Below are positions 6,082 to 27,133 of a stretch of DNA of 34,904 bases, piece after piece. Each line of letters starts with the position of its first letter. Position 1 is the stretch's first letter. The notes under the pieces are model-generated. The model saw nothing but the letters and a program-made list of their open reading frames with translations. It did no database searches and was not told the origin of the DNA. The position numbers and the translations under genes were made by a program. Origin of the DNA: Okeania sp. SIO2B3 (lineage in GTDB: Bacteria > Cyanobacteriota > Cyanobacteriia > Cyanobacteriales > Microcoleaceae); assembly GCF_010672525.1 (NCBI RefSeq), contig NZ_JAAHGH010000083.1, forward strand, positions 1-34,904. Reading direction: 5' to 3'.

Positions 6082-6285
6082 TTATCCTCTGCCTTTTACA
6101 ATTTTGGGGACTGTCCAAACTTTTGAACCTTCTTTAAGAGCTTCATTTTCTTGCAAAGGTTTGGTTTTACCGAATCCTTCTTCTATGACATCGTCATTAC
6201 CAATTTCTGGTAGTTTTGCCCGCAATTCTTCCACAGTTGCACCTTGGGGTAAATCAATTAATTTGCCATTAACAACAGCTTTCAT
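6082..6285 (-). CDS. Ubiquitin-like modifier protein with C-terminal glycine
   Basis: A 67-aa beta-grasp type protein: MKAVVNGKLIDLP at the N-terminus, a central helix with ATVEELRAKLPEI, and a tail KIVKGRG that ends exactly on glycine. It resembles single units of the multi-ubiquitin family found with E2 and JAB-E1 partners. The tail ends in Arg-Gly rather than Gly-Gly and needs no trimming, so the JAB domain next door is more likely to reverse conjugation than to mature the precursor. A good ribosome-binding site (TAGGAGA, about 5 nt upstream) supports the start. It is the first gene of the tight modifier/E2/JAB-E1 cluster. Confidence 0.78.
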   Translation of the reverse strand: MKAVVNGKLIDLPQGATVEELRAKLPEIGNDDVIEEGFGKTKPLQENEALKEGSKVWTVPKIVKGRG

Positions 6286-7438: not shown

Positions 7439-7496
7439 GGTTGGTTTTGATTCATTATTTTTGTTCGTTTCTCTCAACTGTTTATATTTAAACATG

Positions 7497-7576: not shown

Positions 7577-7606
7577 AAAAAAAACTTCCTCAATATCAGA
7601 GGAAGT
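7577..7606 (-). terminator. Intrinsic terminator of CRISPR array 1
   Basis: Read on the minus strand, ACTTCCTC-TGATATT-GAGGAAGT forms an 8-bp stem followed by eight T. The first two stem bases belong to the last CRISPR repeat (7605-7606), so the terminator begins inside the array. It fixes the direction of array 1 transcription from high to low coordinates. Confidence 0.85.
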
Positions 7607-10600
7607 TTCCATTAATTCCGCTCCAATCGAAGCTCCAAAGAAGAAGAGATGGAATTAAAAAAGAGTTCCACCGAGGTTTCCATTAATTCCGCTCCAATCG
7701 AAGCTCCAAAGAACTTTCAGGTATAGTGACGGGAGTACAAGGGATGTAAAAGGTTTCCATTAATTCCGCTCCAATCGAAGCTCCAAAGATCAACACTGGT
7801 ATTGGTTTTAAACCTGGAGATAGTAGGACTGTTTCCATTAATTCCGCTCCAATCGAAGCTCCAAAGTTGTATGTGAGTTTAGTTACGAACCGGGTATCAT
7901 ACGTTTCCATTAATTCCGCTCCAATCGAAGCTCCAAAGACAAAAACCACCATCAAGGTGATTTCCTCCAACATGTTTCCATTAATTCCGCTCCAATCGAA
8001 GCTCCAAAGACCATAATATCAGAAAATGAGATTGAAGGCGACCAAGATGTTTCCATTAATTCCGCTCCAATCGAAGCTCCAAAGTTTTTCTAAAACCATG
8101 ACATATCAAACTGGTTCCGTTGTTTCCATTAATTCCGCTCCAATCGAAGCTCCAAAGCGTCGGATAAGGTAAAATATGACTTGATAGAAGAAGTGTTTCC
8201 ATTAATTCCGCTCCAATCGAAGCTCCAAAGGTTGCCGATGTTAAATCAAAAGTAGACAGAAGGTTTCCATTAATTCCGCTCCAATCGAAGCTCCAAAGGC
8301 TTCACACTGATCAGCCTAGGAAACCACCTAAGTGTTTCCATTAATTCCGCTCCAATCGAAGCTCCAAAGTTAGTTTCGTTGGATTTGCCTCGAAGGCAAC
8401 TGCAGGAGGATGTTTCCATTAATTCCGCTCCAATCGAAGCTCCAAAGCAATCTAAACAGCAACTACAACCAAAATGGGCTAAAGTTTCCATTAATTCCGC
8501 TCCAATCGAAGCTCCAAAGGAAACTGTTCGTGTTATTTTTTCTGATTCTTCCTTTTGTTTCCATTAATTCCGCTCCAATCGAAGCTCCAAAGCTTCCATT
8601 GCTCTTTCCGCTGGTTTTTCTGTTGTTAGTTTCGTTTCCATTAATTCCGCTCCAATCGAAGCTCCAAAGACCAGAGGGTTTGGAAGTAATGCGAATTGGT
8701 GCCAGATGTTTCCATTAATTCCGCTCCAATCGAAGCTCCAAAGATTTAGTTTCTGGCAAGGTGAAAATTTTATCTGTCGTTTCCATTAATTCCGCTCCAA
8801 TCGAAGCTCCAAAGTGGTCAAATTGGTGGTAAAGTCAGAATACGTCTAAAAGTTTCCATTAATTCCGCTCCAATCGAAGCTCCAAAGACAACAAGATGGA
8901 GAGAGGGGTAATTACTTTGGGTTTCCATTAATTCCGCTCCAATCGAAGCTCCAAAGTCGAAGGTGCTATTGCAACCCAAATCAATGCAGGAACGTTTCCA
9001 TTAATTCCGCTCCAATCGAAGCTCCAAAGATTCAAAAAAATCTATCATTGAGGGGTTAGACCGAAAAGGGTTTCCATTAATTCCGCTCCAATCGAAGCTC
9101 CAAAGTTTTTTACAATTTATATCCTAACTCCCAGCTGAAAAATGTTTCCATTAATTCCGCTCCAATCGAAGCTCCAAAGTTTTCAAAAGGCTGAGGTTAA
9201 GGTGGAAGCACTAAGAGTTTCCATTAATTCCGCTCCAATCGAAGCTCCAAAGCACAGCCAAGATTGCTATCTTGGGTGATCATGGTATGTTGTTTCCATT
9301 AATTCCGCTCCAATCGAAGCTCCAAAGGTCAAGTATTAAAAGTTATACTTGACGACCAAATCGTTTCCATTAATTCCGCTCCAATCGAAGCTCCAAAGTT
9401 ACAGAAACAATATTGTGCCAGTCCTGATTTTTGTTTCCATTAATTCCGCTCCAATCGAAGCTCCAAAGGAAATATTTTCCCCTTGGAAAAAGTTTCAATG
9501 CCAATACGGGTTTCCATTAATTCCGCTCCAATCGAAGCTCCAAAGACATATGAAAATTGGTAACTTTCTTCCTGATTTTTAAATGTTTCCATTAATTCCG
9601 CTCCAATCGAAGCTCCAAAGACAATCAGATTCACTGGTCGTTTCTTTGGCGAGCGTGGTCGTTTCCATTAATTCCGCTCCAATCGAAGCTCCAAAGCACA
9701 GCATCGTTCAATTTATAAGGGAACAGAAGTTTATAGTTTCCATTAATTCCGCTCCAATCGAAGCTCCAAAGGATCGAAGCAAGCGGGCAAGAGATGAGGG
9801 CCCTTCTAGGTGTTTCCATTAATTCCGCTCCAATCGAAGCTCCAAAGGAAACCTGCTTCATTACTGGTAACCCTTTCAATAGTTTGTTTCCATTAATTCC
9901 GCTCCAATCGAAGCTCCAAAGAAAATGTGGAGCTTGACCCTATTCAAAAGGGGCAAGATGTTTCCATTAATTCCGCTCCAATCGAAGCTCCAAAGTCAGC
10001 AAATCACAAGTAAATATATTTCACCATCGTTTCCATTAATTCCGCTCCAATCGAAGCTCCAAAGATATACCCTTGTCATTCCTTGCACTGGTACCCAAAT
10101 GTTTCCATTAATTCCGCTCCAATCGAAGCTCCAAAGCAAAAACTATCACGAAAAATGGTGAACAAGAAAACGTTTCCATTAATTCCGCTCCAATCGAAGC
10201 TCCAAAGGCAGAAAAGTTGGATGGGAAGTATTATTCCCCAAACGTTTCCATTAATTCCGCTCCAATCGAAGCTCCAAAGCTCGAATCAGCAGGACATTGG
10301 AATTGAGGCTCACGTTGTTTCCATTAATTCCGCTCCAATCGAAGCTCCAAAGTCCACAATGAAATCCTCCCTGGAGGATCTGGGGTATACAGATGTTTCC
10401 ATTAATTCCGCTCCAATCGAAGCTCCAAAGGAATGAGAAGTTAGCTTTTGAGATAGAGCAGCACCAGGAAGATGTTTCCATTAATTCCGCTCCAATCGAA
10501 GCTCCAAAGCCTGATGATCAAGGTCTATTCCGATGGACCAAAACAGGCGTTTCCATTAATTCCGCTCCAATCGAAGCTCCAAAGCAACCAGGTGTGCAAA

Positions 10601-13600
10601 AGCATGCGGCCCCAACGGATGTTTCCATTAATTCCGCTCCAATCGAAGCTCCAAAGGAGAAAAAAAATGCTACACTGATCGAATTCACTATCGAGTTTCC
10701 ATTAATTCCGCTCCAATCGAAGCTCCAAAGGTTTTAGAAGTTGTTAAGAATGCTGAAAACGCAGCTCAGGTTTCCATTAATTCCGCTCCAATCGAAGCTC
10801 CAAAGGTTCCTTCGCTTCTTTTTACAATTCAGTAAAAAGAACTGTTTCCATTAATTCCGCTCCAATCGAAGCTCCAAAGACACTCACCGTTTTGAAGAAT
10901 TTGATGGAACACGCTCTCGTTTCCATTAATTCCGCTCCAATCGAAGCTCCAAAGAAATGATCCCCCCGTGCCTCCAAATAGCTCTAGCGGTTTCCATTAA
11001 TTCCGCTCCAATCGAAGCTCCAAAGTAAAAGTTCATAGCTTTTAATGTAGTAGTGAGCCTCGTGTTTCCATTAATTCCGCTCCAATCGAAGCTCCAAAGT
11101 GGGTCAGGTAATTCACCCAAACATAAACAGCATTAAGTTTCCATTAATTCCGCTCCAATCGAAGCTCCAAAGAGCTGGTATCCTACTCCACAAGCAGTTG
11201 CGGAACCGCTTGTTTCCATTAATTCCGCTCCAATCGAAGCTCCAAAGGCAATCACATACACACATCAGGTCCAGGAGGAGAAGATGTTTCCATTAATTCC
11301 GCTCCAATCGAAGCTCCAAAGTGAATGGCACAGATATAGCTTACGGAAACTGGTGTTTCCATTAATTCCGCTCCAATCGAAGCTCCAAAGCTCGAGATCT
11401 GGAATCAAAGGTGCATAAGTAGGATTAGTAGGTTTCCATTAATTCCGCTCCAATCGAAGCTCCAAAGGCGCACGCTAAAACCTAAGAAAATTGATGAGGC
11501 TATAGATTGTTTCCATTAATTCCGCTCCAATCGAAGCTCCAAAGGTATTCTGAGTTTGCCATGATGAAGTTAGCTGAGGTTTCCATTAATTCCGCTCCAA
11601 TCGAAGCTCCAAAGGAAAAGCAAAAGATCTACTGTTTGAAATGGAACAAACGGGGGGTTTCCATTAATTCCGCTCCAATCGAAGCTCCAAAGCATCTCAG
11701 ATAACTGGCCTTTTTGGGGATTCCCAAAGTTTCCATTAATTCCGCTCCAATCGAAGCTCCAAAGAGTGATATGGTTACCTTTCGTCCCCACAATAGGACA
11801 GGAAGTGTTTCCATTAATTCCGCTCCAATCGAAGCTCCAAAGCATCTCAGTTATTGATAACAATTTCTGCCCAGATGTGTTTCCATTAATTCCGCTCCAA
11901 TCGAAGCTCCAAAGATACAGAATTTCAAAAGAAGGTCTGGTGAACAACCCGTTTCCATTAATTCCGCTCCAATCGAAGCTCCAAAGTTTTACAGTGCTCC
12001 TTAATGGAAAACAAGTCTTAGAGTTTCCATTAATTCCGCTCCAATCGAAGCTCCAAAGGAAGGCACATTGGAGAAATGGTCAAGTCCATGACCATGTTTC
12101 CATTAATTCCGCTCCAATCGAAGCTCCAAAGCAAATCCGGCTAACTGCTCAGATTTATCTGCGGAATGTTTCCATTAATTCCGCTCCAATCGAAGCTCCA
12201 AAGTTCTGGCATGGGGTCGATTGTGACTAATGGGAATTGCAAAGTTTCCATTAATTCCGCTCCAATCGAAGCTCCAAAGTGCTATAAGCTTTCTACTGTC
12301 CATAGTGCTAGGCCTCGCGTTTCCATTAATTCCGCTCCAATCGAAGCTCCAAAGTGGTTCTTACCGTCTCTATGGTGTTGGCTCTGAATCGCGTTTCCAT
12401 TAATTCCGCTCCAATCGAAGCTCCAAAGTGTATGGGAACACTACACAATGCAAGATAATGACCACTAAAGTTTCCATTAATTCCGCTCCAATCGAAGCTC
12501 CAAAGTAAGTTTTGACAATAATAACTGCACAGCAAGAGGTACGTTTCCATTAATTCCGCTCCAATCGAAGCTCCAAAGTCAATTCCGTGAAACATTCCCT
12601 CAAGCCCTATCCTACTTGTTTCCATTAATTCCGCTCCAATCGAAGCTCCAAAGGCTCCGACGAAAACTATATATACGGCTATGAAATGTTTCCATTAATT
12701 CCGCTCCAATCGAAGCTCCAAAGAAAATTCCCGAGAAAGATGCATATAATGATATCCTTCGTTTCCATTAATTCCGCTCCAATCGAAGCTCCAAAGATGA
12801 GCGGAATCAACACTTCTAACGTAAGTGTTGAAAAGTTTCCATTAATTCCGCTCCAATCGAAGCTCCAAAGAAGGTTTGACTCTTAATGACCTAGTAGTTG
12901 AAGACTTGGTGGTGTTTCCATTAATTCCGCTCCAATCGAAGCTCCAAAGGATATTTATTAGATGGATTAAACCCAGAAGATATTAAGTTTCCATTAATTC
13001 CGCTCCAATCGAAGCTCCAAAGAAAAATCCTCTAAGTCTCTGGGTTAGACAGTTGAGTTTGTTTCCATTAATTCCGCTCCAATCGAAGCTCCAAAGTAAA
13101 GTTTTGTGTACAGCTAATGGTTTGGATATACTGTTTCCATTAATTCCGCTCCAATCGAAGCTCCAAAGTTTGAGTCTCTTGTATCCACCACTTTCAGTGC
13201 TCTGGGTAATGTTTCCATTAATTCCGCTCCAATCGAAGCTCCAAAGGTATTGGTTTCCCTTATGCTCGTCGTGCTCGTTCATTGTTTCCATTAATTCCGC
13301 TCCAATCGAAGCTCCAAAGCTAGGGGTCGTCCTAGGTGCAGCTGCGCCCTTAGGTTTCCATTAATTCCGCTCCAATCGAAGCTCCAAAGATGATGACATG
13401 AACAACAAAGCCAACTGGAACGTATACTTGTTTCCATTAATTCCGCTCCAATCGAAGCTCCAAAGTCAATAATCTGAAAAATAATGTCAAAACCAAGTGG
13501 TTTCCATTAATTCCGCTCCAATCGAAGCTCCAAAGACCTCTCATATTTTTACTCAAGACAGAGGGGCAAACTTGTTTCCATTAATTCCGCTCCAATCGAA

Positions 13601-13837
13601 GCTCCAAAGCTTATTAGTTTTAAGCGTTACACACTAGGTAAAAATGTTTCCATTAATTCCGCTCCAATCGAAGCTCCAAAGAAAAAAGCTAACTTGGTTA
13701 ATTCACGAGCTGGCTTTATACGGTTTCCATTAATTCCGCTCCAATCGAAGCTCCAAAGGGGCGACGCATTGCCGTCTTCAAGAAATGAAGGCACTTATAT
13801 TGTTTCCATTAATTCCGCTCCAATCGAAGCTCCAAAG
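7605..13837 (-). CRISPR. CRISPR array 1: 85 repeats, 84 spacers
   Basis: Hand count gives 85 copies of a 36-bp repeat starting at 7605 and ending at 13837, with spacers of about 32-43 bp. On the transcribed (minus) strand the repeat begins CTTTGGAGCTTCGATTGG and ends AGCGGAATTAATGGAAAC; the last eight bases, ATGGAAAC, fit a type III crRNA 5' handle. Bases 8-12 (GCTTC) can pair with 17-21 (GGAGC), including one G-U pair. No variant repeat was noticed, even at the distal end. The leader is on the high-coordinate side, next to cas2, and the far end carries an intrinsic terminator. Spacers look unrelated to each other; their targets cannot be named without a search. Confidence 0.98.
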
Positions 13838-14205: not shown

Positions 14206-14502
14206 CTAAATTACATAGAAATTAGGAGGAGGTTCTGGTTTTTCACTACCGATAGTCAAAGTCATTGGCATCGCCTCAGCAAAAATCCAGTAAAAGCGAA
14301 CGTTATCTTCCGTTGGCAAAACAAACTTTTTCACCTTTTGATATAACTGTCGCATCTCCTCCAAACTAATGAAACATTCAAAAACAGAATACTGCACCCG
14401 GCGGCCGTAACCCTCCAGAAAATTAGATAACTTTGTCCGCCTTTTATCATCAGGAATATCATACACAACAATTACCACATTCTTATACTCTAAATTCTCC
14501 AA
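14206..14502 (-). CDS. cas2: Cas2, spacer-acquisition endoribonuclease-fold protein
   Basis: Up to 98 aa with the Cas2 ferredoxin-like fold: VVIVVYDIPDDKRRTKL at the N-terminus (the conserved aspartate after YD), then GRRVQYSVFECFI, and VRFYWIF later. Cas2 forms the core of the Cas1-Cas2 spacer integrase. The start is uncertain. No in-frame ATG exists. TTG at 14502 overlaps the RT-cas1 stop by 13 bp, which suggests translational coupling. A GTG at 14478 would give a protein starting right at the first strand. It is last in the minus-strand acquisition operon and abuts the array 1 leader. Confidence 0.93.
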   Translation of the reverse strand: MENLEYKNVVIVVYDIPDDKRRTKLSNFLEGYGRRVQYSVFECFISLEEMRQLYQKVKKFVLPTEDNVRFYWIFAEAMPMTLTIGSEKPEPPPNFYVI

Positions 14503-15883
14503 AAAGGCTCATAAGCTTCCCCATGCAAAAGATAACGCTTATAACGCCGAATTTGTAATTGAATTACCTGTCGATAACACACCTGAGATTGTATGTCCGG
14601 ATGAGAAATTGACTCATTCATTCTTTGTTCAAATTGTTCCAAAAATACCTTCCTTGGCCCTGGCTTCAGATAAACACCACCAGTCGTAATAACTGATTCA
14701 AAATCCTTTGGCTTTACCGCAGAAGAATTGATAAACCATAACACAAAACTATCAACAATAGGAGAACGAAATTCCTCCATTAAATCAAAAGCTAAATATG
14801 GTTTTTTTTCTTCTCCATAATGGAAATTCCCAAAATACGGCGATAAACCCTCAGCAATAATCAAACTCAAAACATTATTAAAAAGTAGAGTATAGCCAAA
14901 ACTCAACAAAGAATTTACCGGATCTTGGGGTGGTTGCCGATTCCGCAAAGAAAAGCTAAAAGCCGAATTACTAATTAACTTACCCAAAGCCGGAAAATAT
15001 CGAGCAGCACTAATACCTTCATAACCCCGTAAACTATCAATATTCTTAACACTATCAACAGCCAAAATATCAGTATTAATTCCAGCGATCGCTTTTGCCA
15101 CATCCGGCACTTGACGCTTCCGATTTAATCTTAATAAAAGCTGTCGAGAATTCATCAACTTACCCCGAACAATAGCCTGACAAACAGGTAATTGAAACTC
15201 CACATTACCATGTTTTTTCACCTGAACCAATTCATTATCTAAATGAGTAGAATCCAAGTTCCAAACATGACCCTTATATTGACCAGAGGAAGCCAAAAAT
15301 AAGACAACAATTTTTTTATCTAAACAAGTTTGAATTACGGGAGTAGTCAACTGAATATTGCCAAAAATCAAAATTCGTTCCACCTCCCTAATTGGAATTT
15401 CCACCCGATTATTATCATTATTTTTATCGGGAATCCAAATCCCAAACCGTTGATTGTCCTTATAAATAGTAGTACCAGCTTCAAGCAAATAAAGAGTAGC
15501 CATTTCTCGACTCCAAGTTATACGATTAGCAAATTTTTTAGCAAGCTTTAACTCGACATTTTCTATGGTTGTTGTTGATGAAAAAGCTGTTGGTAAAACT
15601 TCCGATTCCGTTGTTTCCGTTTCTTGTTCTTCGAGACTTTTTTTTTTACCCCCTTCTTCCAACTGACTTTCAACTTCAGTAGATGAATACTTAGGAGATT
15701 TAGCAGTATTTGACTCAACTGGAAAAATAGCATTATCAAGAAAACCATGCCCCAGAAAACGAAATCCTTCTTGAAAATTAGTCAAAAGAGTTTTATCAGG
15801 ATGCAAAGTTAACTTTAGAGAATCCAAAGTTTTTTCTACATGAGAAGAAGCAGCAATAATTTCTTCTAAACTTTTAGCCAGGA
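14490..15883 (-). CDS. cas1: RT-Cas1 fusion, 3' exon (end of RT domain plus Cas1)
   Basis: The second part of an RT-cas1 gene split by a group II intron. After joining to 18264-18996 it completes a 708-aa protein: the split codon gives Val245, followed by LAKSLEE and the RT motifs LTLHPDKT and GFRFLGHGFL, then an acidic low-complexity linker, then Cas1. The Cas1 catalytic residues are present (numbering of the spliced protein): Glu533 in GYEGISAARYF, His599 in NFHYGEE, and Asp611 in FDLMEEFRSP. The exon alone has no ATG start for Cas1; the first candidate is a TTG at 15827 inside the RT end. Without splicing, Cas1 would be made poorly or not at all. RT-Cas1 fusions in type III systems can acquire spacers from RNA. 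Confidence 0.92.
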
Positions 15884-15924
15884 GTCGGGTAGGGCAGGAG
15901 CATCGCTGCTCCCTTCCCCCCTAA
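15884..15924 (-). ncRNA. Intron domain VI with branch-point A
   Basis: The minus-strand RNA folds around GGAGCA-GCGA-UGCUCC with an outer G-rich/C-rich stem and leaves an unpaired A in CUACCCGAC, seven nucleotides from the intron end. That is where group II introns place the lariat branch adenosine. Confidence 0.7.
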
Positions 15925-15959
15925 GAACCGAGCTTGCAAGATTTCCAAGCACTCGGCTC
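15925..15959 (-). ncRNA. Intron domain V-like catalytic hairpin
   Basis: The 35-nt element starts GAGCCGAG and ends CTCGGTTC, giving the typical 8-bp basal stem of domain V, with a GAAA in the apical region. The upper helix pairs less well than in textbook examples (two U-U oppositions if folded classically), and the element is one base longer than the usual 34. Splicing competence should therefore not be assumed. Confidence 0.75.
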
Positions 15960-15974
15960 AAGCAAATCACAATG

Positions 15975-17636
15975 TCAACCGTAATGAATTTGTTGGTGAC
16001 AGAGAAGATGCACGAGTTGTAGGTTTTTGTATGTATCTTTACCCCCAATAGATTTGGGAATAATATGGTGAGTGTGTAAAATTTCTCCGTTGAATAGAGA
16101 TTCTTTACATCTCGGACATACGAAGTTTTGGTTCAAGGCCAGCTTTTGTACCGAACTTTTGTAATTCTGGGATTGTCTTTTTCTTTTGTCCCTAAACCAT
16201 TGTTGAACTTCTGGGCTGGGGTCATCAGGGCAGAATAATCCTGGTACTAGAACGTGACGTTTAATTTTGAACCAGGTGAATTTGAGAAGGTGGATACCAC
16301 TCTGAAAATCACCAAAGACCCATCTGTCGTTTCTCTCTAGGTTAAATCTTCCGAAATATCTTTTCTTCCTCCAAGCATCGTTTTTATTTGGGTGCATCCT
16401 CTTGGCATATCTTCTGGCTCGTTTGTGCATCCAGGCATCTAAACTTTCAAAGACTTTTCTTGAGACTCCGACCTTATAATAGTTTGCCCATCCTCGGATA
16501 ATGGGGTTGAGTTTAGCTACTATTGTTTTGACATCAAAAGCTTGGTGTTTTAGCCAAACCTGTTTGATTTTGAGTTTTATATCTTTGATTGCTTGTCTAT
16601 TTGGCTTGATTAACAGTTTGTAGCCAGATTTTCTGCTGATATCTCTGTAATGCCTGATATTAAAACCTAGAAAGTCAAAGCCTTCGGTTATGTGAACGAT
16701 TTTGGTCTTCTCTTGATTAAGTTGAAGACCTCTTTGTCCTAACCATCCTGCTAAGTGGTCAACTATTGCTTCGGCATCTTCTGAAGTTTCACACAGGCAA
16801 ACAAAGTCGTCTGCGTACCTAATTACAATGCGGTTGCCAATAATTTGCCCCCGCTTGTCATATTTGATGCCTATGGACTGTTCCATTCCATGTAGGGCGA
16901 TATTAGCAAGAAGTGGTGAAATCAGTGCGCCTTGAGGCGTACCAGCTTCTGTTGGGTTGAATGTGTTTTGATCGACGTATCCCGATTTTAGCCATTGATA
17001 AATGAGCCTTCGTGCGGGGAAATTACCTAATGTATTCATCAGGAACTCATGGTCGATATTATCGAAACAACCTTTGATGTCGGCATCTACTACCCATTTT
17101 TTCTTCCCGTTTGGACGGATACCACAGAAGATTTTTTCTATAGCATCGTGGGTGCTTCTGCCTGGTCTAAAACCGTAACTGCTTCTTTCAAATTGTGCTT
17201 CCCAACATGGTTCTAATGCGTTTTTGACTATTGCCTGTAGGCAACGGTCGATTAGAGATGGGATTCCTAAAGGACGTTTTTTGCCGTTAGATTTTGGGAT
17301 GTATACCCTTTTAGCTGGTAGTGGTTTCCAAGGAATGAACTGACTAAGTGAGTCCACCAGTTGTCCTCTTCCTTTGGGATTGAGTACTACCAATCCGTCA
17401 ATACCTGAAGTTTTCTTGCCCTGGTTCAGTTGCGTACACCTCCTAACTGCCAGGAGTATATTGCTGTATGACTTCATTAGAAGCCGTTGCAAATTTCGGA
17501 CTGTTTTCCAATCTTCATTTTTAGTTGCCTTGAAAATTCGCTGTCTCAAGTTCTTAACAATGCGGTTGGTTTTCTGCCAATCGACAGAGTGCCAGTCCGT
17601 TTTGTTCTGCTTAATTACGTTTACGACAGTTGTCAT
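15975..17636 (-). CDS. ltrA: Group II intron-encoded protein (RT-maturase-HNH)
   Basis: A 553-aa intron-encoded protein. The RT domain spans about 65-340, with RPLGIPSLIDR (121-131), SSYGFRPGRSTHDA (152-165), VVDADIKGCFDNIDH (182-196), GTPQGALISPLLANI (232-246) and RYADDF (273-278). A maturase (X) domain follows, with IIRGWANYYKVG. The last 47 residues are an HNH endonuclease with CPRC, HTHHIIPKSIGG and LLCHQQIH. All catalytic motifs look intact, so the intron is probably mobile by retrohoming and supplies the maturase for its own splicing. The reading frame ends 91 bp before the intron 3' end. It is not a CRISPR protein, although it has an RT nested inside the gene of another RT. Confidence 0.95.
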   Translation of the reverse strand: MTTVVNVIKQNKTDWHSVDWQKTNRIVKNLRQRIFKATKNEDWKTVRNLQRLLMKSYSNILLAVRRCTQLNQGKKTSGIDGLVVLNPKGRGQLVDSLSQFIPWKPLPAKRVYIPKSNGKKRPLGIPSLIDRCLQAIVKNALEPCWEAQFERSSYGFRPGRSTHDAIEKIFCGIRPNGKKKWVVDADIKGCFDNIDHEFLMNTLGNFPARRLIYQWLKSGYVDQNTFNPTEAGTPQGALISPLLANIALHGMEQSIGIKYDKRGQIIGNRIVIRYADDFVCLCETSEDAEAIVDHLAGWLGQRGLQLNQEKTKIVHITEGFDFLGFNIRHYRDISRKSGYKLLIKPNRQAIKDIKLKIKQVWLKHQAFDVKTIVAKLNPIIRGWANYYKVGVSRKVFESLDAWMHKRARRYAKRMHPNKNDAWRKKRYFGRFNLERNDRWVFGDFQSGIHLLKFTWFKIKRHVLVPGLFCPDDPSPEVQQWFRDKRKRQSQNYKSSVQKLALNQNFVCPRCKESLFNGEILHTHHIIPKSIGGKDTYKNLQLVHLLCHQQIHYG

Positions 17637-18263
17637 ATCTAACTTTTCTTAAGAGTTCAGAGTTTTTACTTTGAATTTCAAGAGATTCACCAATCTTCCG
17701 TCAGCACTCTTTCAAGTTGGTTATTCCAGGTTTTGTTCCTGACCTATCCGTCGAGTTATGCCCGATACTTGGGCTTTCCTCTAGGGTTTCCCCCTGACGG
17801 CTTTCGCTTCTGAAGATTTCCTACACCCGCTAGGGAGTTGATAGTTATCTTGCGATTTCCCTACTTTGAACGTGGGAAGTAGTTCAAAGACCCTATCGGG
17901 GTTATCCTGTTTCACACGGTATGGAGATACGATTAACTTAGGACTTTATCTTTACTCCGAGGCTAGGTGTCCTCGAATAAGGCTTCTGGTGACCTTATTC
18001 CTGTTGCCTATCTCCCGTATCAGTCATTTTCGGGGTTTAGATGTCACGAAGCATGAGATAAATTCACTGTTCGTTGTCCTTATTAATCTTGCCCTTGCCT
18101 ACCTTTTGAGTTTGTGACTACCTACTCGGTTTCGGCTTTCCCTCTCGCTGTGCGACATTCCAATTACTCAAAACGCCGTGAGTGGGTGGACACAGGCTGT
18201 TGGACACTTGCCTGGGGAGGTTTTAGGAGTCTCCCACTCTACCGTGCGCCTTTCAGGTCGCAC
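17637..18263 (-). ncRNA. Group II intron 5' ribozyme region (domains I-III and start of IV)
   Basis: These 627 bp upstream of the intron ORF carry no convincing gene. They start with GTGCGACC and a nearby CGCAC that can pair with it, and contain the candidate EBS1 about 288 nt from the 5' end. Open frames on the plus strand here are taken as chance. Individual domains were not folded. Confidence 0.75.
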
Positions 18264-18996
18264 CGAGAAAATCATCAGCATAACGCACCAATTTCCAGTC
18301 AGTATCAGAGAAACTTTTATCAAATTCATCTAAATAAATATTAGCCAACAGAGGAGAAACTACAGCCCCTTGAGGGATACCTTTCTCAGCTTTAACAATT
18401 CTTTCCTTAGTTAAAATCCCAACAGAAATCCAAGATTTAATCAAACATAAAATCCCCGGATGTTCCACATATTTTCGCACTGCTCTTAATAATATTTGGT
18501 GGTTAATATTATCAAAAAACTTAGTAATATCGGCATCTAAAACAAACCGATAACCTTTATCTCGCCACCGAATTACCTCATTAACAGCATCTAAATAAGA
18601 AAGATTAGGACGATAGGCAAAACTAACAGCAGAAAAATGTTTTTCTACCACAGGATTAAGCACATTTAAAAGGGCGTGTTGAACAGTTCTATCCCTAACA
18701 GTAGGAATTCTTAATTCTCGAAAATTACCATGATTTTTAGCAATTAAAATCTGCTTACAAGGAAGAGGTTGATATCTATTATTAGCCACATCATCCTTAA
18801 GTTGAGAAATATTAGCCCGTAAACTTTGCTGAAAATCATCAATAGTCTCATCATCAACACCGGGACTACCTTGTTTGGCAGCAACCTTAGCAAAAGCTTG
18901 AATAAAATTGTCTAAAGAGAGGAATTTATCGACTAAATTAGTCGAGTCTAATTCCGAGTTATTGTTTAAATTAGGAAAAATCTTTCGGAAAACCAT
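18264..18996 (-). CDS. cas1: RT-Cas1 fusion, 5' exon (reverse transcriptase domain)
   Basis: The first part of the split RT-cas1 gene: 244 codons plus one base. RT motifs in order are [13 protein letters not shown] (43-55), [14 protein letters not shown] (96-109), [14 protein letters not shown] (125-138), [15 protein letters not shown] (152-166), [15 protein letters not shown] (206-220) and VRYADDFL (237-244). The YADD catalytic motif is the last thing coded before the intron. Without splicing the frame runs only three further codons (GAT) to a stop inside the intron, giving a truncated RT without its thumb and without Cas1. No Cas6 domain precedes the RT, unlike some RT-Cas1 relatives. The start at 18996 fits the first RT block; no strong ribosome-binding site is visible. 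Confidence 0.92.
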
Positions 18997-19482: not shown

Positions 19483-20952
19483 TTACTTTTGATAAAATTT
19501 CCAAGCTTGCTGAACATCATTAGCCATAGTTTCACGCAAACCCAAAGGCAAGAAAACTTCAACTTTCGGTCCCCAACTTCTCAAACGCATAATCGTATTA
19601 AAATCCTGCCGATAGCTAACTCGACAGTAAATATCAGAGCTAGAACGAGATTTTAAACTTCCTAAAAGCTGCTGTTTTTGCTGCAATTTTATCTGGGAAT
19701 TATTAATCAAACTTTGAGCTTGTTTTTTGGAAATTTGTTTAAATAACTTCTCTCGTTCCGTACCTTGAATATAAAGATTATGGTAATAACGGTCAAATCT
19801 AATTAGTAATATCTCTTGGGGCCGAGCAAAATTAAATCCCCAAGCTTCACTGCAAAAATCTTCTAGAGTTTGAGGTGTTTTTGACTCACACCTTTTCTGG
19901 GAAAAGTTCGGCAATTTTACCAAATTCCACTCTAACTCTTCTATATTTTTAATCCTATCAAGGCGATAACCATACCAATTTATTTTCATGGGACTACTAT
20001 CATTGGGAGTTTGACCATAAGCAAATAAATAAGGGGCACGTTGAGAATAGTAAATACAAACAGGATAGATAATATAATCTTCTCCTTCATCTTGATAATT
20101 TTGAAAATTACTGGCACTAACATAAGTGATTTTTATTGGTGGAATTGGTTGAGATTGCCAAAGATTTTTGAGTTTTTGTGTCCAATTATTTATCTTTTCA
20201 GAAAATTGCTGATGTACAATATATTCAAGTTCTAAAAAGAAGCGTTGTTCGTGATTAATTTTCTGACTAAACTCATTGAAAAAATCTGCTAAATCATTTT
20301 GAATTATATTTTCAATTCCTTGATTATCGACAATTTCGGAGGAGACAGACATTAGAACATCGGGAAATGAATCAACTTTAATATATTGAGTTTTAAATTT
20401 GTTGTGAGTCGGAGCGCTTTTTACTTTTTCTGTCTGTAACCAACCCATGGAAACTAATGTTTGAAAATCATATTGAAAGTTTTTTCTAGTTTTAGCTAAT
20501 AAACGTATTTTCTCTTGTTTTTTCGACTCTTTTCTTGGAGAAATTATGCCATAATTTAATAAATTATTTAGTTGTTGTGGTGTAACTGAATAGAGCTGAA
20601 GAAACGATTTTTTCCATTCATCATCATTAGAACCTAAAATTGGTTCAAACAGCCAATCAGTCATTGTTTTGTGACAAGAACAATTGGAATCATGGTTATG
20701 AGGAATTATATCATTTTTATGATAATCCAACTCCGTAAAAAACTGACGACACCAGTCATTGTAGGTAAATTTATTTCCTAATTCAACTTTGACTGGATCT
20801 GCTGCATCTCCATATAGCGATCGCAAGATTACCCATAGACGTACTGCTTTAGGTAAGTTTTGTTTTAAAGACCCCCGTGCCAATATCTGTAAAAATTCAA
20901 CATCAGGGGAAAAGTCGAAAACTTTAGATGCTCTGAAGTTACTCTGATTCAT
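19483..20952 (-). CDS. CRISPR-associated TIGR03985-like protein (WYL-type)
   Basis: A 489-aa protein that I match from memory to the TIGR03985 family of cyanobacterial CRISPR loci. The diagnostic N-terminus is FLQILARGSLKQNLPKAVRL (about 20-39), followed by a region with a probable winged-helix (YDFQTLVSMGWLQTEK). The C-terminal half has a WYL-like part: IKITYVSA, FAYGQTP, INWYGYRLDRIKNIEEL and a final CRVSYRQDFNTIMRLRSWGPKVEVFLPLG. WYL proteins sense nucleic-acid ligands and often regulate CRISPR loci. The gene is divergent from cmr2 across 435 bp, a natural place for a regulator of both operons. An alternative is a structural accessory; no enzymatic motif is visible. Confidence 0.7.
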   Translation of the reverse strand: MNQSNFRASKVFDFSPDVEFLQILARGSLKQNLPKAVRLWVILRSLYGDAADPVKVELGNKFTYNDWCRQFFTELDYHKNDIIPHNHDSNCSCHKTMTDWLFEPILGSNDDEWKKSFLQLYSVTPQQLNNLLNYGIISPRKESKKQEKIRLLAKTRKNFQYDFQTLVSMGWLQTEKVKSAPTHNKFKTQYIKVDSFPDVLMSVSSEIVDNQGIENIIQNDLADFFNEFSQKINHEQRFFLELEYIVHQQFSEKINNWTQKLKNLWQSQPIPPIKITYVSASNFQNYQDEGEDYIIYPVCIYYSQRAPYLFAYGQTPNDSSPMKINWYGYRLDRIKNIEELEWNLVKLPNFSQKRCESKTPQTLEDFCSEAWGFNFARPQEILLIRFDRYYHNLYIQGTEREKLFKQISKKQAQSLINNSQIKLQQKQQLLGSLKSRSSSDIYCRVSYRQDFNTIMRLRSWGPKVEVFLPLGLRETMANDVQQAWKFYQK

Positions 20953-21387
20953 TTTTCTAATTTGGTCTGGTAGGAGTTAGGTCGAAAATTTTGTTACTTA
21001 CTATAAAAGTTGTGGTGATAGATTTTCAATAATTTTGATGCGAATGAGGAAAAAAAGTGGAACTCATCCGTATAAATACAGAGTCATCTAAAAGAGATTT
21101 AATTTTTTTTGCCCCACCAACTCATCAATGGCATTTTTCTGGACATAATCTCTACAAACATACATAAATTTGTCATTCGCATAAAAATAGTTGTGGGTGC
21201 TGCTAAGTAATGCTAGTCTAGAAATGTCAACAAAAAATCCAGCAAATATGGACTACATTACCTAATAAAAAATTGAAAAAATTTTTCCTGTTGCACATAT
21301 AAAAACAAGGAATTAATTACACAAATTTTTTAATTGCTTAGTCCTCACAATTTTTCATATACTAAACTTAAGCAGAAAAATCAGCCA
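20953..21387. promoter_or_regulatory. Divergent intergenic region, TIGR03985-like gene/cmr2
   Basis: This A/T-rich 435-bp gap should hold the promoters of both the TIGR03985-like gene and the cmr operon. No obvious operator palindrome was found. An open frame enters cmr2 from a TTG at 21334, but it adds 18 residues without family similarity, so cmr2 is started at 21388. No other gene is supported here. Confidence 0.5.
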
Positions 21388-23010
21388 ATGCCAGTATATG
21401 CAGCGACAACTTTTTCCCCAGTACAAGGTTTTATCGAAAAGTCTCGCAAACTTAGAGATTTATACGGCGCATCGGTCATTATTTCTCATCTTAGCGCCAG
21501 ACTAATTAATGCAGCTTTAGAACAAAAAATAGATGTTATTTCCCCTGGAATTCCTAACTATGCTAGGGGAATGCCTAACCGAATTTTACTTAGAAATAAT
21601 CACTTTGATAGTAATAACCAAAAATTTGCAGAATGGTTAGAAAATTGGGCAAATACTACTATATTATTGGAATGGAAAAAGGTATTAACAGAATGTCAAA
21701 AATGGATTGAAACTGCCGTTCCAGGAGAAACTAACCAACTAACTTATCATTGGCAACGAGAATGGGAACTATGGAGAAATCACACCTGGGAGATTTTCTG
21801 GGGTGCAGGAAATACCATTCCAGAAGCAATGAAAGACCTAGAAAATCGCAAATTATCTCGAAATTGGACGGCAACAAATTGGATAGGAGAAAGTTCTAGT
21901 ATTACTGGTACTGATGCGATCGCCTGGCCTGGATTAGCTAGCGAAGACAGAAACCCGAAATACTTAAAACACGAAGATGAAAAGTCAGACATTGAATATT
22001 TTTACCAACTTCTAGCAACTAAATTAGAAACAAAAGTTCCTAACAGTAAACCAGAGGAGGGAATAGAAGGTAAATTTCTCGATCCTAGCGAACGCCTAAG
22101 CATTCCTGAACTCACAAAACGCCTAGTTACTCAATATCAAATCCGTCAAAAATTAGGATTACCCCATCTAGAAAAATTTACAGATATCGTCAGAAAACCA
22201 GAACCAGAAAAAAATCAACCTAGTCAATGGACTGGTTGGTTTATGGGAGATGGTGACAAGGTGGGAAATCATTTGCAGGAGTTGGCAAAACAACCTGATG
22301 GGGAAGAAAAAATTAGAGAGTTTAGTGAAGCAATGCGAGAATGGGGTAAAAATTTTATGAATAAATTTAATAAACCCTCAAAAGTAAAAAAGCTAGGGCG
22401 GGTTATTTATGCTGGTGGGGATGACTTTTTGGGAGTAATTTACAGAACTCCTGAGAACCCAGTGGAACCCAGAAAAGCATTGGAATGGTTAATGACTGTA
22501 CCCGAACAGTGGAAAGAACACAAGCAAGACATTACTGTTAGTGTTGGTTTTGTCTGGGTAGCTGGCAGTGTTCCACAACGGGATGTGTTGCAACATTGTC
22601 GGGCAGCAGAAAAGCGAGCAAAGTCTTTAGGGCGCGATCGCGTAACTATTAGAGTATTGTTCAATAGTGGTAGATTTGTCCAGTGGACTTGTCCGTGGGA
22701 TTATTTGTATATTTTGAATAATTATCGCGATCGAGAAGGGGGTAAAAATTGGACTCATGTTTACAACGATCTAGCTCAATTAAAAGCACGTCATGGAATT
22801 AACCCTTATCCTGAAAGTGGGAATACAGATTTTAAATTAGCTTTGGCTTTAATGAATCTTTATTTTTCAGATAAGGATGATGAAACTAAGCAAAAAAAAG
22901 GCAAGGAAATTCTGGAAAATCAGAAATATTTAGTGGGAGATAATTCTCCTAAAGAGTTGTTGAAATGGATAAGCGATTTAATATTAGTTGGATGGCAAAT
23001 GTGTTCTTGA
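21388..23010 (+). CDS. cmr2: Cmr2/Cas10, HD-less, with GGDD cyclase motif
   Basis: A 540-aa large subunit of a type III-B effector. It starts directly with the first Cas10 palm-like block (YAATTFSPVQGFIEKSRKL), so the N-terminal HD nuclease domain of full-length Cmr2 is absent. The first palm carries MGDGDKVGNHL (DGD 288-290). The catalytic palm carries YAGGDDFLGV (GGDD 343-346), which in Cas10 makes cyclic oligoadenylate when target RNA is bound. CRAAEKRAKSLGRDRVTI follows. Usual Cmr2 length is 800-1,000 aa, so this is a short form. With no HD domain, ssDNA cleavage is not expected; signalling should be the main output. It heads the plus-strand operon that ends in a CARF-HEPN protein. Confidence 0.92.
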   Translation: MPVYAATTFSPVQGFIEKSRKLRDLYGASVIISHLSARLINAALEQKIDVISPGIPNYARGMPNRILLRNNHFDSNNQKFAEWLENWANTTILLEWKKVLTECQKWIETAVPGETNQLTYHWQREWELWRNHTWEIFWGAGNTIPEAMKDLENRKLSRNWTATNWIGESSSITGTDAIAWPGLASEDRNPKYLKHEDEKSDIEYFYQLLATKLETKVPNSKPEEGIEGKFLDPSERLSIPELTKRLVTQYQIRQKLGLPHLEKFTDIVRKPEPEKNQPSQWTGWFMGDGDKVGNHLQELAKQPDGEEKIREFSEAMREWGKNFMNKFNKPSKVKKLGRVIYAGGDDFLGVIYRTPENPVEPRKALEWLMTVPEQWKEHKQDITVSVGFVWVAGSVPQRDVLQHCRAAEKRAKSLGRDRVTIRVLFNSGRFVQWTCPWDYLYILNNYRDREGGKNWTHVYNDLAQLKARHGINPYPESGNTDFKLALALMNLYFSDKDDETKQKKGKEILENQKYLVGDNSPKELLKWISDLILVGWQMCS

Positions 23011-23132: not shown

Positions 23133-24146
23133 ATGTTTAAATATATCATAACCGTTCAACCTTTAGGGTTAATGTATGGTAGCTCAGGAGGATTTTTATC
23201 ACCAGAAAATTTAGTAGGATGTTCGCGGGCTAAATTTCCTCCCGATGCCGCTACTCTCTCAGGATTAATCTTAAGTTATGAGCGCTATATTAATCCGAAT
23301 CAAGATAGTTCAGTTAGTAAAACACTTGATAAAAATCTTCATGTAGCAGGTCCTTTTTGGGCTAAAGAAAAATCACCTAAAACATTTTACGTCCCTATAG
23401 CTTGGACAAAAATTATTGGCGACAAAGGTATAGATGAATGGATAGTAAAAGATGATAAATGGTATCGCAATGAAGATGAAGCTAAACAACAACAAGAAAT
23501 TGAAGCAGAATATAATTGGTTAAGAATAAATGATTGGGATAAACCTGTAAAAACTATTAGAAGTAATAAGTCAATGGAAAAAAATCCTTGGCAATTTGTA
23601 CCAATGCTTCACCCTAGAATGAAATATGAAGAACGCCATGTCAAGGAAGAGGACGGATTATTTCTAGAATATGCAGTACAAATGCCAGATGATGCCTGTT
23701 TAGTTTATCTTTCTACCCATCCTTTAGAATCTGGTTGGTACAAATTTGGAGGTGAAAACCATGTAGTAGAAATTAATAGCATAGAACTATCAGAAAGCGA
23801 TCTAATTATTAAACTGTTAAAAAAGCAAATTCAAAAGAGTTTTGCTCTAATTACACCTGCTGTTTGGGGTTCTAATAGATTGTCATTTCGGAATCCTCAA
23901 CATCCAGATTTTCCGACAACCAAACTAATGCTAACAGACAAAGCAATACCTTACCGCTATCGAACTCAAGGTCGCTTAGGTAGGGGCAGATATGCAGTAT
24001 CGGCAGGTAGCGTTTATGTATTAGAAAAACCCCTAAATAAATCTTGGTGGGAATGGCCTGAAGCATGGTTTCCCAAAGAGGGTATTAGTCTGCAAAAAGT
24101 TGGTTCTGGTTTATGTTTACCTCTAGATATTCAAGGAGTAGCTTAA
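23133..24146 (+). CDS. cmr3: Cmr3 (Cas5-like RAMP subunit)
   Basis: A 337-aa Cas5-group RAMP protein. The N-terminus IITVQPLGLMYGSSGGFLSP and the next block AKFPPDAATLSGLILSYE match Cmr3. The C-terminal half has GWYKFGGENHVVEI, ITPAVWGSNRLSF, and a glycine-rich loop region YRYRTQGRLGRGRYAVSAGSVYVL. In the Cmr complex this subunit binds the 5' handle of the crRNA next to Cmr2. Its stop abuts the cmr4 start codon (TAA then ATG), so the two are translationally linked. The length is normal for the family. Confidence 0.9.
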   Translation: MFKYIITVQPLGLMYGSSGGFLSPENLVGCSRAKFPPDAATLSGLILSYERYINPNQDSSVSKTLDKNLHVAGPFWAKEKSPKTFYVPIAWTKIIGDKGIDEWIVKDDKWYRNEDEAKQQQEIEAEYNWLRINDWDKPVKTIRSNKSMEKNPWQFVPMLHPRMKYEERHVKEEDGLFLEYAVQMPDDACLVYLSTHPLESGWYKFGGENHVVEINSIELSESDLIIKLLKKQIQKSFALITPAVWGSNRLSFRNPQHPDFPTTKLMLTDKAIPYRYRTQGRLGRGRYAVSAGSVYVLEKPLNKSWWEWPEAWFPKEGISLQKVGSGLCLPLDIQGVA

Positions 24147-24959
24147 ATGTATAAAAAAGTTTATGGTATTATTGAAACTCTCGCACCGCTCCATGTTGGT
24201 GCAACTGCTGGAGAGGAGAGCGGGAATTTGAATATGATTTTTCGCGACCAATTCACTCAAACTGGGATTATTCCTGGTAGTTCCGTGAGAGGGCGAATGA
24301 AAGCGGAAATGCGGGACGAACAAGGGGAAGGTGCTGCCGATAAATGGTATGGTAAGGAAGCAGAAATGGGAAAAGCTGACAGCACTACAGAATCTTTAGT
24401 GAAGTTTGAGTATGCTTCTACAGTTTGGATACCTGTATTTTGTCCTGGTCAACCTATTGTTTGGGTAACTTGTCCCCGTTTGTTGAAGCGATATCAACGT
24501 ATTGCAGGAGTGGAGCAAAAACTTCCTAAGGAGTACACAGGTTCTAAAACTTTGAAAGCACTGAATATTGAAGCCAAGGAAACCTTATTTTTTAACTTTG
24601 GTTTTCTCACTGTTGACAGGAAAGAAGACCTAACACCTTGGTTTCCTCTAGGGAAGCAGTTGCCAGCAGTGGTAGTGGGAGATGATGAAATTGCCATGAT
24701 TCACGATATGGCATTGTATCGTCAGAGTCGTGTAGCTCTGGAGAAAGAGGAGAAAAAGGCAAAAGGTGGGGCATTTTTTAATACTGAAGCGTTACCGGAA
24801 GGAACTATTTTGGTGTTTCCTATTGCTATTAAAGAGAATAAGAATAGTAACGGAAAATGGCAACCTTTTCCAGATGGTAATGAAGGCGAAATTTATTTGG
24901 GTGGGTTAGAGTCTATCGGTTTTGGCAATTGTCAAGTTATTATCAAAGGAGTAGAGTAG
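24147..24959 (+). CDS. cmr4: Cmr4 (Cas7-like backbone subunit)
   Basis: A 270-aa Cas7-group RAMP. Recognisable blocks are ETLAPLHVGAT (10-20), FRDQFTQTGIIPGSSVRGRM (32-51), FFNTEALPEGTILVFPI near the C-terminal third, and YLGGLESIGFGNCQV at the end. Asp34 in the FRDQ segment sits where Cmr4 carries the aspartate that cleaves target RNA at 6-nt intervals; this assignment is by position only. An AAGGAG ribosome-binding site overlaps the end of cmr3. Several copies would form the crRNA filament. Confidence 0.92.
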   Translation: MYKKVYGIIETLAPLHVGATAGEESGNLNMIFRDQFTQTGIIPGSSVRGRMKAEMRDEQGEGAADKWYGKEAEMGKADSTTESLVKFEYASTVWIPVFCPGQPIVWVTCPRLLKRYQRIAGVEQKLPKEYTGSKTLKALNIEAKETLFFNFGFLTVDRKEDLTPWFPLGKQLPAVVVGDDEIAMIHDMALYRQSRVALEKEEKKAKGGAFFNTEALPEGTILVFPIAIKENKNSNGKWQPFPDGNEGEIYLGGLESIGFGNCQVIIKGVE

Positions 24960-24961
24960 TT

Positions 24962-25393
24962 ATGGCTTGGGAATCTTATAAATTAGATGAGTACGCTCAC
25001 GACCTGGTATTAAAGTACCGTGACCAAGACGTATTGAATGAAACTCATAAAATGCGGGTGACAGTTGCTTATGGTTTGGAGCGGTTTTGGGGAGAGCAGT
25101 TTCGCTTAGAGAAAGATAAAAATCAACACAAAGCTGAATATTGGCGGGATACTTGGGAAACTCTAGTCAAAATTATGGCAAAAGCAAAAGTTAAAGTTCC
25201 CAATGATCGGGTTGATAGTAAGAAGACAGAGCAAATTCAGGCGATGGCAGAGAAGTTATGGAACAGATCAGATCATAATTCAGGGTCTGACAAAAAATCA
25301 AAATTTGACGAAGATCGGCGCAAGGTAACTTTAGCTGTGCTGACTCAACTATGCGACTGTATGGTGTGGTGGGCACAACGGTATAAGAAGTGA
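24962..25393 (+). CDS. cmr5: Cmr5 (Cas11 small subunit)
   Basis: A 143-aa mainly helical protein typical of Cmr5: LKYRDQDVLNETHKMRVTVA at the N-terminus, many lysines and glutamates, and a C-terminal helix LAVLTQLCDCMVWWAQRYKK. The start at 24962 is chosen because an AAGGAG site lies 10 nt upstream at the end of cmr4 and the family begins here. An extension to 24929 overlaps cmr4 and adds unrelated residues. The role is to line the effector groove and stabilise the target RNA duplex. A 141-bp gap with pyrimidine-rich TCCCTAT repeats follows. Confidence 0.88.
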   Translation: MAWESYKLDEYAHDLVLKYRDQDVLNETHKMRVTVAYGLERFWGEQFRLEKDKNQHKAEYWRDTWETLVKIMAKAKVKVPNDRVDSKKTEQIQAMAEKLWNRSDHNSGSDKKSKFDEDRRKVTLAVLTQLCDCMVWWAQRYKK

Positions 25394-25534
25394 TGGCAGA
25401 TAGGGTGATGGGGAGGGAGTGTGGGGAGTATGGGAAGTGTGGGGAGAAAAAGTATAGTACAAGCATTTTTTGTCTTTTTATCCCCTGTTCCCTATTCCCT
25501 ATTCCCTCTTTGAAAAAATATTTCTTAATTAACT

Positions 25535-27133
25535 ATGAATCATAATAATGTACCTCGAATGTTTCGCGCTCAAATAGAAGGGCGCTGTCAAATACAAAGA
25601 CTACCCCATGCAAAGGAAGATGCTTATGAATGGGCAGACCAGTGGGTAGAAGGTGCATCCTCTGGTGTGCCTAGATTTAATCATGCTATTCAATGGAAAG
25701 ACTATAAAATTAGTTGGCGTTTTGTCACTAATAGCGGTCAAGATGAGGGAGTTATTCGTCCGGTAATAGGGGCAAAAGGTCATCCCTATTACCCTGGTGC
25801 TAGTATGAAAGGCGCTTTCTTGCGCAACTGTACCCCAGAACAAGCTATGAGATATTGTGGAGGCCAAATAGGCAATGAAACTAAGCCTGGTATTCTGCGG
25901 TTTCATGGTGGATATCCTCAAGATGGTAGTTGGACGGATAAACAGTTAGTTGATATTGTGCATCCTCAGCAGGAATGTCAGGTAGAAAAACAAGCTAACC
26001 ACAGTGCTTTCGTGCAAATTTCTCTCTATCAACCTACTTTAGTTTTTGGTCTTTCCAGCAATCAAAATTTAGATGAGACAGAGTGGGAGGAAATTTGGCT
26101 TCTTTGGGAACAAGCTTTAGGTAAAGGAATAGGTTCTCGTGTTAGCGCTGGTTACGGACACCTAAAAAGTCACAAAGAAAATCTTTTGTTTCCCCCTATT
26201 TTCTTCAAAGGTAAAGGTTTAGCACCAAAGTTAATCAATGAAACTGGAGAGTTTCGTCCGAATATGTTTAAAGCTGCTCTTCGGGGTCATACTTTGCGGT
26301 TATTTGGTGGAGTCACTAATGAGGTAACTGCTCAGAAATTAACCAAGAAATTATGGGGTGGTTTTAATGGTAAAAGTCCTTATGTAGGAAAGTTAGGTAT
26401 AGCTTTTAATGCTGTTGGGTTGGAGATGGATACTTTTGGGCATTTTGAGTTACCTACATACGAGTTAAATGAGGGAAAATTAGAGATTTTATGTCTGGGA
26501 AATATGACAGAACAACAACATGGTAATCTCAAAAAATTAATGTTGAATATAGTTAAGTTTTCTTTGTTGTTAGGTGGGTTCGGTAAGTCTTGGCGACGGA
26601 TTGACCATCGTTTGTTTTTTTCTGAATATTTCAGGCATAATAATAAACCAATGATTGGCTGTCATTGGGAGTTTACTGATAGATCGAAAAAATTGTATAT
26701 TCCTGTGCATAATTTGTCTGATGTGACTAAATTTTTAGATAGTCTACATTCAAAAATTAAAGCTTATGTTCAGACGGTAGAAAAACAAAAATTAGTAAGC
26801 AAAGGAAGTGATTGGAGAGAAGCTTGGCATCCTGAAAAAGTAGAAGTTTGGGGTAGAATTGCTGAGGGCGATTTTGATAGTGAAGCTATTTATTGGTTTC
26901 ATCAAGAATATCAAAGAGGAAAGACGATTCAAAATTCAGTTTTAACAGGTCAAATGGGAAGAATTGGTCGAATTTGGCATCGGATGTATCCTCGTTATAT
27001 TGTGCAAAATAAAGCACATAAAAAAACTAGAGAATATGTAGAATTACTGACTATTTTTCCTGATGATTCAGAAAATACTAATGATTTTATCGACTATTTA
27101 AAAAATGCTAGTGAGTTTGAAAAAGTTTGGTGA
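25535..27133 (+). CDS. Double-RAMP protein, TIGR03986-like (in place of Cmr1/Cmr6)
   Basis: A 532-aa RAMP protein that I match from memory to the TIGR03986 family of cyanobacterial type III loci. Two Cas7-like units can be seen. The first (about 1-212) has YYPGASMKGAFLR (85-97) and the glycine loop GKGIGSRVSAGYG (196-208), as in Cmr6. The second (about 235-380) has FRPNMFKAALRGHTLRLFGG (240-259), which looks like the Cmr1 entry motif, and a second loop LLGGFGKSWRRIDHRLF. The C-terminal 140 residues are helical and unassigned. No separate cmr1 or cmr6 exists in the operon, so this protein probably supplies the 3' end cap and crRNA 3' contact of the complex. Canonical Cmr1 and Cmr6 are each about 250-350 aa. 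Confidence 0.75.
   Translation: MNHNNVPRMFRAQIEGRCQIQRLPHAKEDAYEWADQWVEGASSGVPRFNHAIQWKDYKISWRFVTNSGQDEGVIRPVIGAKGHPYYPGASMKGAFLRNCTPEQAMRYCGGQIGNETKPGILRFHGGYPQDGSWTDKQLVDIVHPQQECQVEKQANHSAFVQISLYQPTLVFGLSSNQNLDETEWEEIWLLWEQALGKGIGSRVSAGYGHLKSHKENLLFPPIFFKGKGLAPKLINETGEFRPNMFKAALRGHTLRLFGGVTNEVTAQKLTKKLWGGFNGKSPYVGKLGIAFNAVGLEMDTFGHFELPTYELNEGKLEILCLGNMTEQQHGNLKKLMLNIVKFSLLLGGFGKSWRRIDHRLFFSEYFRHNNKPMIGCHWEFTDRSKKLYIPVHNLSDVTKFLDSLHSKIKAYVQTVEKQKLVSKGSDWREAWHPEKVEVWGRIAEGDFDSEAIYWFHQEYQRGKTIQNSVLTGQMGRIGRIWHRMYPRYIVQNKAHKKTREYVELLTIFPDDSENTNDFIDYLKNASEFEKVW

Follow-up and report, generated by a model that had tools for sequence, protein, structure and literature searches.

A group II intron behind the YADD codons of an RT-cas1 gene in Okeania sp. 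SIO2B3, and its relatives at the same site in other reverse transcriptase genes

The window analyzed here is a stretch of 34,904 nucleotides of the cyanobacterium Okeania sp. SIO2B3 (contig NZ_JAAHGH010000083.1, assembly GCF_010672525.1). It holds an RT-cas1 gene, encoding a fusion of a reverse transcriptase (RT) with Cas1, that is divided by a group II intron carrying its own intron-encoded protein (IEP). The two exons and the parts of the intron are, in the order of transcription:

18264..18996, minus strand: RT-cas1 exon 1, the RT domain through YADDFL plus one base (Pfam RVT_1; junction)
15884..18263, minus strand: group II intron, 2380 nt (joined frame, colinear intron-free paralogue, same-site relatives)
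15975..17636, minus strand: IEP of 553 aa with RVT_N, RVT_1 (with its own YADD), GIIM maturase and HNH endonuclease (Pfam, NCBIfam TIGR04416, ratio of non-synonymous to synonymous substitution rates, dN/dS)
15884..15961, minus strand: intron domains V and VI (Rfam RF00029; covarying pairs)
14490..15883, minus strand: RT-cas1 exon 2, the rest of the RT domain and the Cas1 domain (Pfam Cas_Cas1; junction)

Joining the exons (733 + 1394 nt) gives a frame of 708 aa that is free of stops inside and reads ...YADDFLVLAKSLEE... across the junction, which bears out the claim of a sequence-only reading of this DNA that the frame is restored exactly and runs on into Cas1. Without splicing the RT-cas1 frame stops three codons past DDFL, and moving both intron boundaries by 1-6 bases in either direction alters the product in all 12 cases. 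The intron begins with GTGCG and ends with CCGAC, and these ends agree with the group II consensus of 5′ GUGYG and 3′ AY. The insertion point lies four bases past the YADDF codons (TTT CTC G^), one base into the next-but-one codon, and not three bases past them as first described. That reading had also placed a retroelement in the codons for the catalytic motif of a second RT; the location behind YADD stands, but the motif itself is kept whole in exon 1, and what the intron separates from it is the remaining RT domain and Cas1.

A second RT-cas1 gene in the same genome (contig C216, 11978..14104) is uninterrupted, encodes 708 aa and is 95% identical. The BLAST blocks that flank the intron abut in this paralogue, with no gain or loss at the junction, and the comparison with intron-free genes, proposed along with the original claim, agrees with it. 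Elsewhere in the genomes of the order, none of the 55 other RT-cas1 places aligned across residues 239-250 has an interruption in that stretch (a hand count from a table with E at most 1e-60, weaker relatives being left out). The junction site itself could be displayed for 22 of 30 RT-cas1 loci, the other eight not fitting the pattern used, and the RT-cas1 contigs of genomes G349 and G362 stop at residues 240 and 220. The assembly is a draft of 249 contigs, and the junction could in principle be an artefact of assembly. We regard this as extremely improbable, since the intron is the single full-length copy in the genome and lies within a contig with ~16 kb on either side, the junction is exact to the frame, the exons differ from those of the paralogue, and the same site is occupied in other genomes. 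Nor is the junction a product of chance, because the same-genome paralogue is colinear there and nine other RT genes share the position at which the intron starts. In a separate related RT-cas1 locus, that of Okeania sp. SIO2F4, which is intron-free, the reading frame breaks at approximately residues 318-335, between the portions for RT and Cas1.

The proposed covariance-model search gave a match of RF00029 to 15961..15884 at 51.3 bits, above the gathering score of 40, the sole Rfam match in the window at gathering level. Over six distinct sequences of domains V and VI, 88.2% of the cells of the named structure are paired, and seven pairs have changed on both sides, a count matched by none of 500 shuffles and falling to at most one when the structure is slid. 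Two results run counter to this: further pair types do not exceed the shuffles (234/500 reach the count), and two named pairs are unpaired in five of the six sequences and one in all six. In the upstream intron RNA, 69 of 163 predicted pairs keep their pairing through two-sided change in at least one sequence (five 5′ regions compared).

The IEP exceeds the cut-off for group_II_RT_mat (NCBIfam TIGR04416). Compared with the guest IEP of genome G280 it is 92.6% identical with a dN/dS of 0.062, and by these measures the protein, with its RT, maturase and HNH parts, is both intact and under constraint. Among solved structures its closest match is 6me0 (413 bits; the next scores 159); the alignment with the chain of the solved group II ribonucleoproteins 6me0/6mec/8fli spans query residues 7-551 and takes in the HNH region. 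6me0 is TeI4h, a group IIB intron from T. elongatus, whose host gene and target differ from those of the present intron.

The closest intron among 388 genomes of the order is that of G280: it is 88% identical over the full length and occupies the same codon position, behind the YADDFV of a further group II IEP. A pattern of YADD codons joined to GTGCG, written after the first cases had been seen, finds 10 sites in seven of the 388 genomes against none for the reversed-pattern control, and all 10 fall in RT frames. The nine hosts other than RT-cas1 (one each in G280, G272, G247 and G306, two in G243 and three in G206) all have RVT_N and RVT_1 upstream of the insertion, and on these matches they are RTs of the RVT_N type, like those of group II introns. 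They are 41-52% identical to the guest IEP, and RT-Cas1 36%. YADD-site 3′ junctions were seen also in G254 and twice in G272, and the 3′ exon starts with T in all six such junctions (window, G280, G272 twice, G254, G243a). Two sub-types can be told apart, GTGCGACCTGAAAG (window, G280, G272, G247, G306) and GTGCGAYTCGATGTCGC (G243, G206). The insertions occupy a single conserved position in the RT genes of several hosts, the mark of introns that home into RT open reading frames (ORFs).

Five downstream host pieces were seen in the relatives. The four that were scanned all match GIIM, one of them (L119, behind the G272y insertion) below the cut-off at 19.5 against 23 bits; the fifth, of 16 residues in G254, was left out of that scan. 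Behind the host frame of G280 and of G272x lies a second domain V belonging to the outer intron, which makes these true twintrons; no outer domain V was found behind G272y, and the contig of G243a ends inside the host frame. The window intron, with RT-cas1 as its host, is not a twintron. The intron thus looks like a member of a lineage that homes into YADD codons and in most cases forms twintrons, but has RT-Cas1 as its host here. Wider searches yielded little: a phylum-wide draw of 386 genomes showed the pattern in two genomes, both already known; viral contigs gave no match to it; 52 plasmid records held partial intron matches, none covering 80%; and family-wide searches (27 and 61 genomes) returned no further full-length close copy and one extra 3′ end, in G272.

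Some further observations concern these relatives. In G206, contigs C7, C28 and C62 each break off after 76 nt of the same intron type, which stands at YADD codons in three different RTs, as is to be expected of a multi-copy intron collapsed in assembly. G317:C18 (L078 4679-7058) carries a 69% relative inside another group II IEP, between the GIIM and HNH regions as read from its flanks, with an outer domain V at 7397-7473; it represents a second RT-gene site of the wider intron family. A 71% relative in the same genus, in G311:C26 (L040 / L077), lies away from YADD and is directly followed by sequence that by eye resembles the second half of domain V/VI, a position that suggests insertion inside a ribozyme core. 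Other relatives at 63-68% showed no RT continuation in their 3′ flank, read in one frame only.

Group II introns find their targets by pairing of exon-binding sites (EBS) in the intron with intron-binding sites (IBS) in the exon, and the candidates in the window are:

17984..17989, minus strand: EBS1 (CCAGAA), in a hairpin loop in the 5′ region of the intron (domain I); best scan column over five introns
18264..18269, minus strand: IBS1 (TTCTCG), the last six bases of exon 1; five of six pairs with EBS1, with a C-C mismatch at -2
18040..18043, minus strand: tentative EBS2 (CATC), pairing with GATG of the Asp-Asp codons; weak
18273..18276, minus strand: tentative IBS2 (GATG), inside the two catalytic Asp codons; weak

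EBS1 was sought as the column whose bases pair best with the last six exon bases of each intron's own host. This column, nt 275-280 of the window intron, falls in the loop of a predicted hairpin and gives five pairs of six in the window, six in G280, six in G272, four in G243 and three in G317; with hand-set loops, free offset and G-U counted, the values are 5, 6, 6, 6 and 6. The introns' own EBS1-IBS1 pairing totals 52, the best of 120 exon permutations, and stays the best when the column is re-chosen for each permutation (12-base windows; runner-up 50), although with five introns this margin is modest. The intron-free site of the paralogue would pair less well with the window EBS1, at four of six. 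Scans for EBS2 at several offsets returned just one weak candidate of 4 bp; its CATC/GATG becomes CGTC/GACG in G272, and it can only be called tentative because it needs G-U in G243 and fails in G317.

It could be argued that the intron in RT-cas1 landed ectopically and by chance near a motif-like sequence, rather than by homing. One EBS1-IBS1 mismatch would fit such an event, as would the equal score of the window EBS1 (10/12 points) with seven of 12 other IBS1 tried, and the single RT-cas1 insertion against 55 uninterrupted places. However, the codon position is identical to that of nine other insertions in six other genomes, and the first base of the 3′ exon is T at all six YADD-site 3′ junctions seen; we find a chance landing quite unlikely. 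Instead, we consider it highly probable that a mobile group II intron, of a lineage homing into RT YADD-motif codons, inserted in RT-cas1. The RF00029 match, the covarying RNA pairs, the EBS1-IBS1 covariation and the intron-free RT-cas1 agree with the earlier view of a real group II intron, and we conclude from these comparisons that the element is real, a group II retroelement at the catalytic-motif codons of another RT, and probably spliceable.

A further possibility is that the intron did insert but splices poorly, and that the interrupted RT-cas1 is a recently disabled copy rescued by its intact paralogue. Branch counts, polarised with Okeania over 698 codons with 14 ambiguous changes set aside, bear on this. 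Given as synonymous to non-synonymous changes, the branch of the interrupted gene has 19:5 in exon 1 and 17:7 in exon 2 (36:12 in total), and the branch of the C216 paralogue 7:10 in exon 1 and 22:10 in exon 2 (29:20). Between the two copies dN/dS is 0.138 in exon 1 and 0.120 in exon 2. By these estimates the RT-cas1 exons are under purifying selection, and the totals of 36:12 versus 29:20 would make the interrupted copy, if anything, the more constrained one. A disabled copy would be consistent with the C-C mismatch at IBS1 -2, with the presence of an intact paralogue, and with the shortness of the host frames that follow the insertions in G254 and G272y; it sits poorly with two open exons, with a branch of the interrupted gene that is not relaxed, and with an intron RNA and an IEP that look intact. 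On balance we judge it unlikely, though deserving of some weight.

Homing of an RT-targeting intron into a working RT-cas1 should nevertheless be read with some caution, since several points weigh against it. The window EBS1-IBS1 pairing is incomplete at -2, and splicing could therefore work less well than it would with all six bases paired. In G243 and G317 the strict column reaches only four and three pairs, and six are obtained only with a loop shift set by hand. Six of the 10 5′ junctions (G247, G243b, the three of G206, G306) come from contig ends alone, where 54-127 nt of intron are present, and the 5′ and 3′ intron parts of G272 are on different contigs. Host frames stop 16 codons behind the insertion in G254 and after 107 in G272y, and therefore not every such host survives. 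The signal of selection in the exons may be mostly older than the insertion, and the uninterrupted second RT-cas1 could carry the function or relieve selection on the interrupted copy. Splicing in RT-cas1, finally, is a step that we infer.

With these reservations, we propose the following course of events. The maturase-bound lariat RNA would read the exon beside the catalytic Asp-Asp codons through EBS1, and perhaps EBS2, and reverse-splice into the DNA there, after which its own RT would copy the intron by target-primed synthesis. Later the intron would be excised from the RT-cas1 transcript with the help of the IEP, and RT-Cas1 would still be made. Both retrohoming and excision from the RT-cas1 mRNA are what established group II biology leads us to expect. 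Few codons of an RT gene are as conserved as those for YADD, which would therefore offer a target wherever another group II intron lives, and RT-Cas1, as a descendant of a group II-type RT, carries the same codons. It is possible, although we advance it tentatively, that the lineage is a specialist parasite of RTs that hits both rival introns and the RNA-spacer-acquiring RT-Cas1, whose synthesis would then depend on splicing aided by the RT/maturase of the parasite, such that a mobile element gates one arm of CRISPR (clustered regularly interspaced short palindromic repeats) adaptation.

Homing into RT ORFs is already known. The F3 introns TeI3a-e of T. elongatus insert into other group II introns, at a conserved place within the RT ORF, and form twintrons (Mohr et al. 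2010, PMC2882425). They are alike in being cyanobacterial, in using an RT-ORF site and in EBS/IBS-guided retrohoming, but the site they use falls between the first and second start codons of the ORF, they have no ORF themselves, and their hosts are intron RTs. The present intron, by contrast, uses the YADD codons, has its own IEP and counts RT-Cas1 among the hosts of its lineage. The nested introns of Methanosarcina acetivorans offer another parallel, in that they are described as homing repeatedly and site-specifically into other group II intron sequences (Dai and Zimmerly 2003, as related in PMC4424553 and PMC2882425). RT-Cas1 of type III-B systems has been treated by Silas et al. 2017 (PMC5513706) and Toro et al. 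2017 (PMC5541045), and, in the portions available, the cyanobacterial RT-Cas1 with cas2, Cmr genes and arrays described there resembles the present host. Those portions make no mention of an intron inside RT-cas1 ('interrupt' has 0 occurrences in both papers); Silas et al. do note group II intron-type RT pseudogenes near Arthrospira type III-B loci (PMC5513706, same portions). Among the literature matches listed, in the parts accessible, none reports an intron at RT YADD codons or in RT-cas1, and an earlier notice of the YADD site in Dai and Zimmerly 2002, 2003 is possible. The YADD site and the RT-Cas1 host thus appear to be new within the literature searched.

Our results suggest a retroelement target that is nearly escape-proof, in that the adjoining DNA specifies a catalytic motif indispensable to any functional RT. 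They also connect the competition between group II introns with CRISPR immunity, because the same codons came down to the CRISPR RT from its intron ancestor, and would provide a natural case where the acquisition of spacers from RNA depends on the splicing of a mobile element.

The host gene belongs to a type III-B locus in which RT-Cas1 stands beside cas2, Cmr genes and arrays:

7605..13837, no strand: CRISPR array, 85 repeats (repeats)
14206..14502, minus strand: cas2, overlapping the end of RT-cas1 (PADLOC Cas2)
19483..20952, minus strand: TIGR03985 / HTH-WYL CRISPR-associated protein (library matches)
21334..23010, plus strand: Cas10 (Cmr2), type III-B (PADLOC Cas10b; NCBIfam Cmr2 below cut-off)
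23133..27133, plus strand: Cmr3, Cmr4, Cmr5 and Cmr6 (PADLOC)
27258..28820, plus strand: Csx1 (CARF-HEPN; PADLOC)
29371..31768, no strand: CRISPR array, 33 repeats (repeats)

The C216 locus repeats the adaptation half in three blocks of 91-94% DNA identity and has a different Cas10 and Cmr set. The genome contains a pair of paralogous RT-Cas1 adaptation modules, and the type III-B effector sets next to them differ. A conflict between spacers and intron was considered and set aside, as none of 198 spacers matches the intron convincingly. The set comprised 84 + 32 spacers of the window and 82 of C216, and the targets were the intron, the RT-cas1 region and 11 related-intron loci; the longest matches were of 17-18 nt with one mismatch, none of them in the window intron, where the sole match was of 13 nt. 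At both loci the arrays are flanked by an E1-like protein and by a small protein that on inspection resembles E2 (window 3986-6118; L067 730-3382), and the C216 copy of E1, the one scanned, has PADLOC E1-E2 matches. Near the end of the contig, at 34680-34830 of the window, there is an AT-rich repeat with a spacing of ~14 bp.
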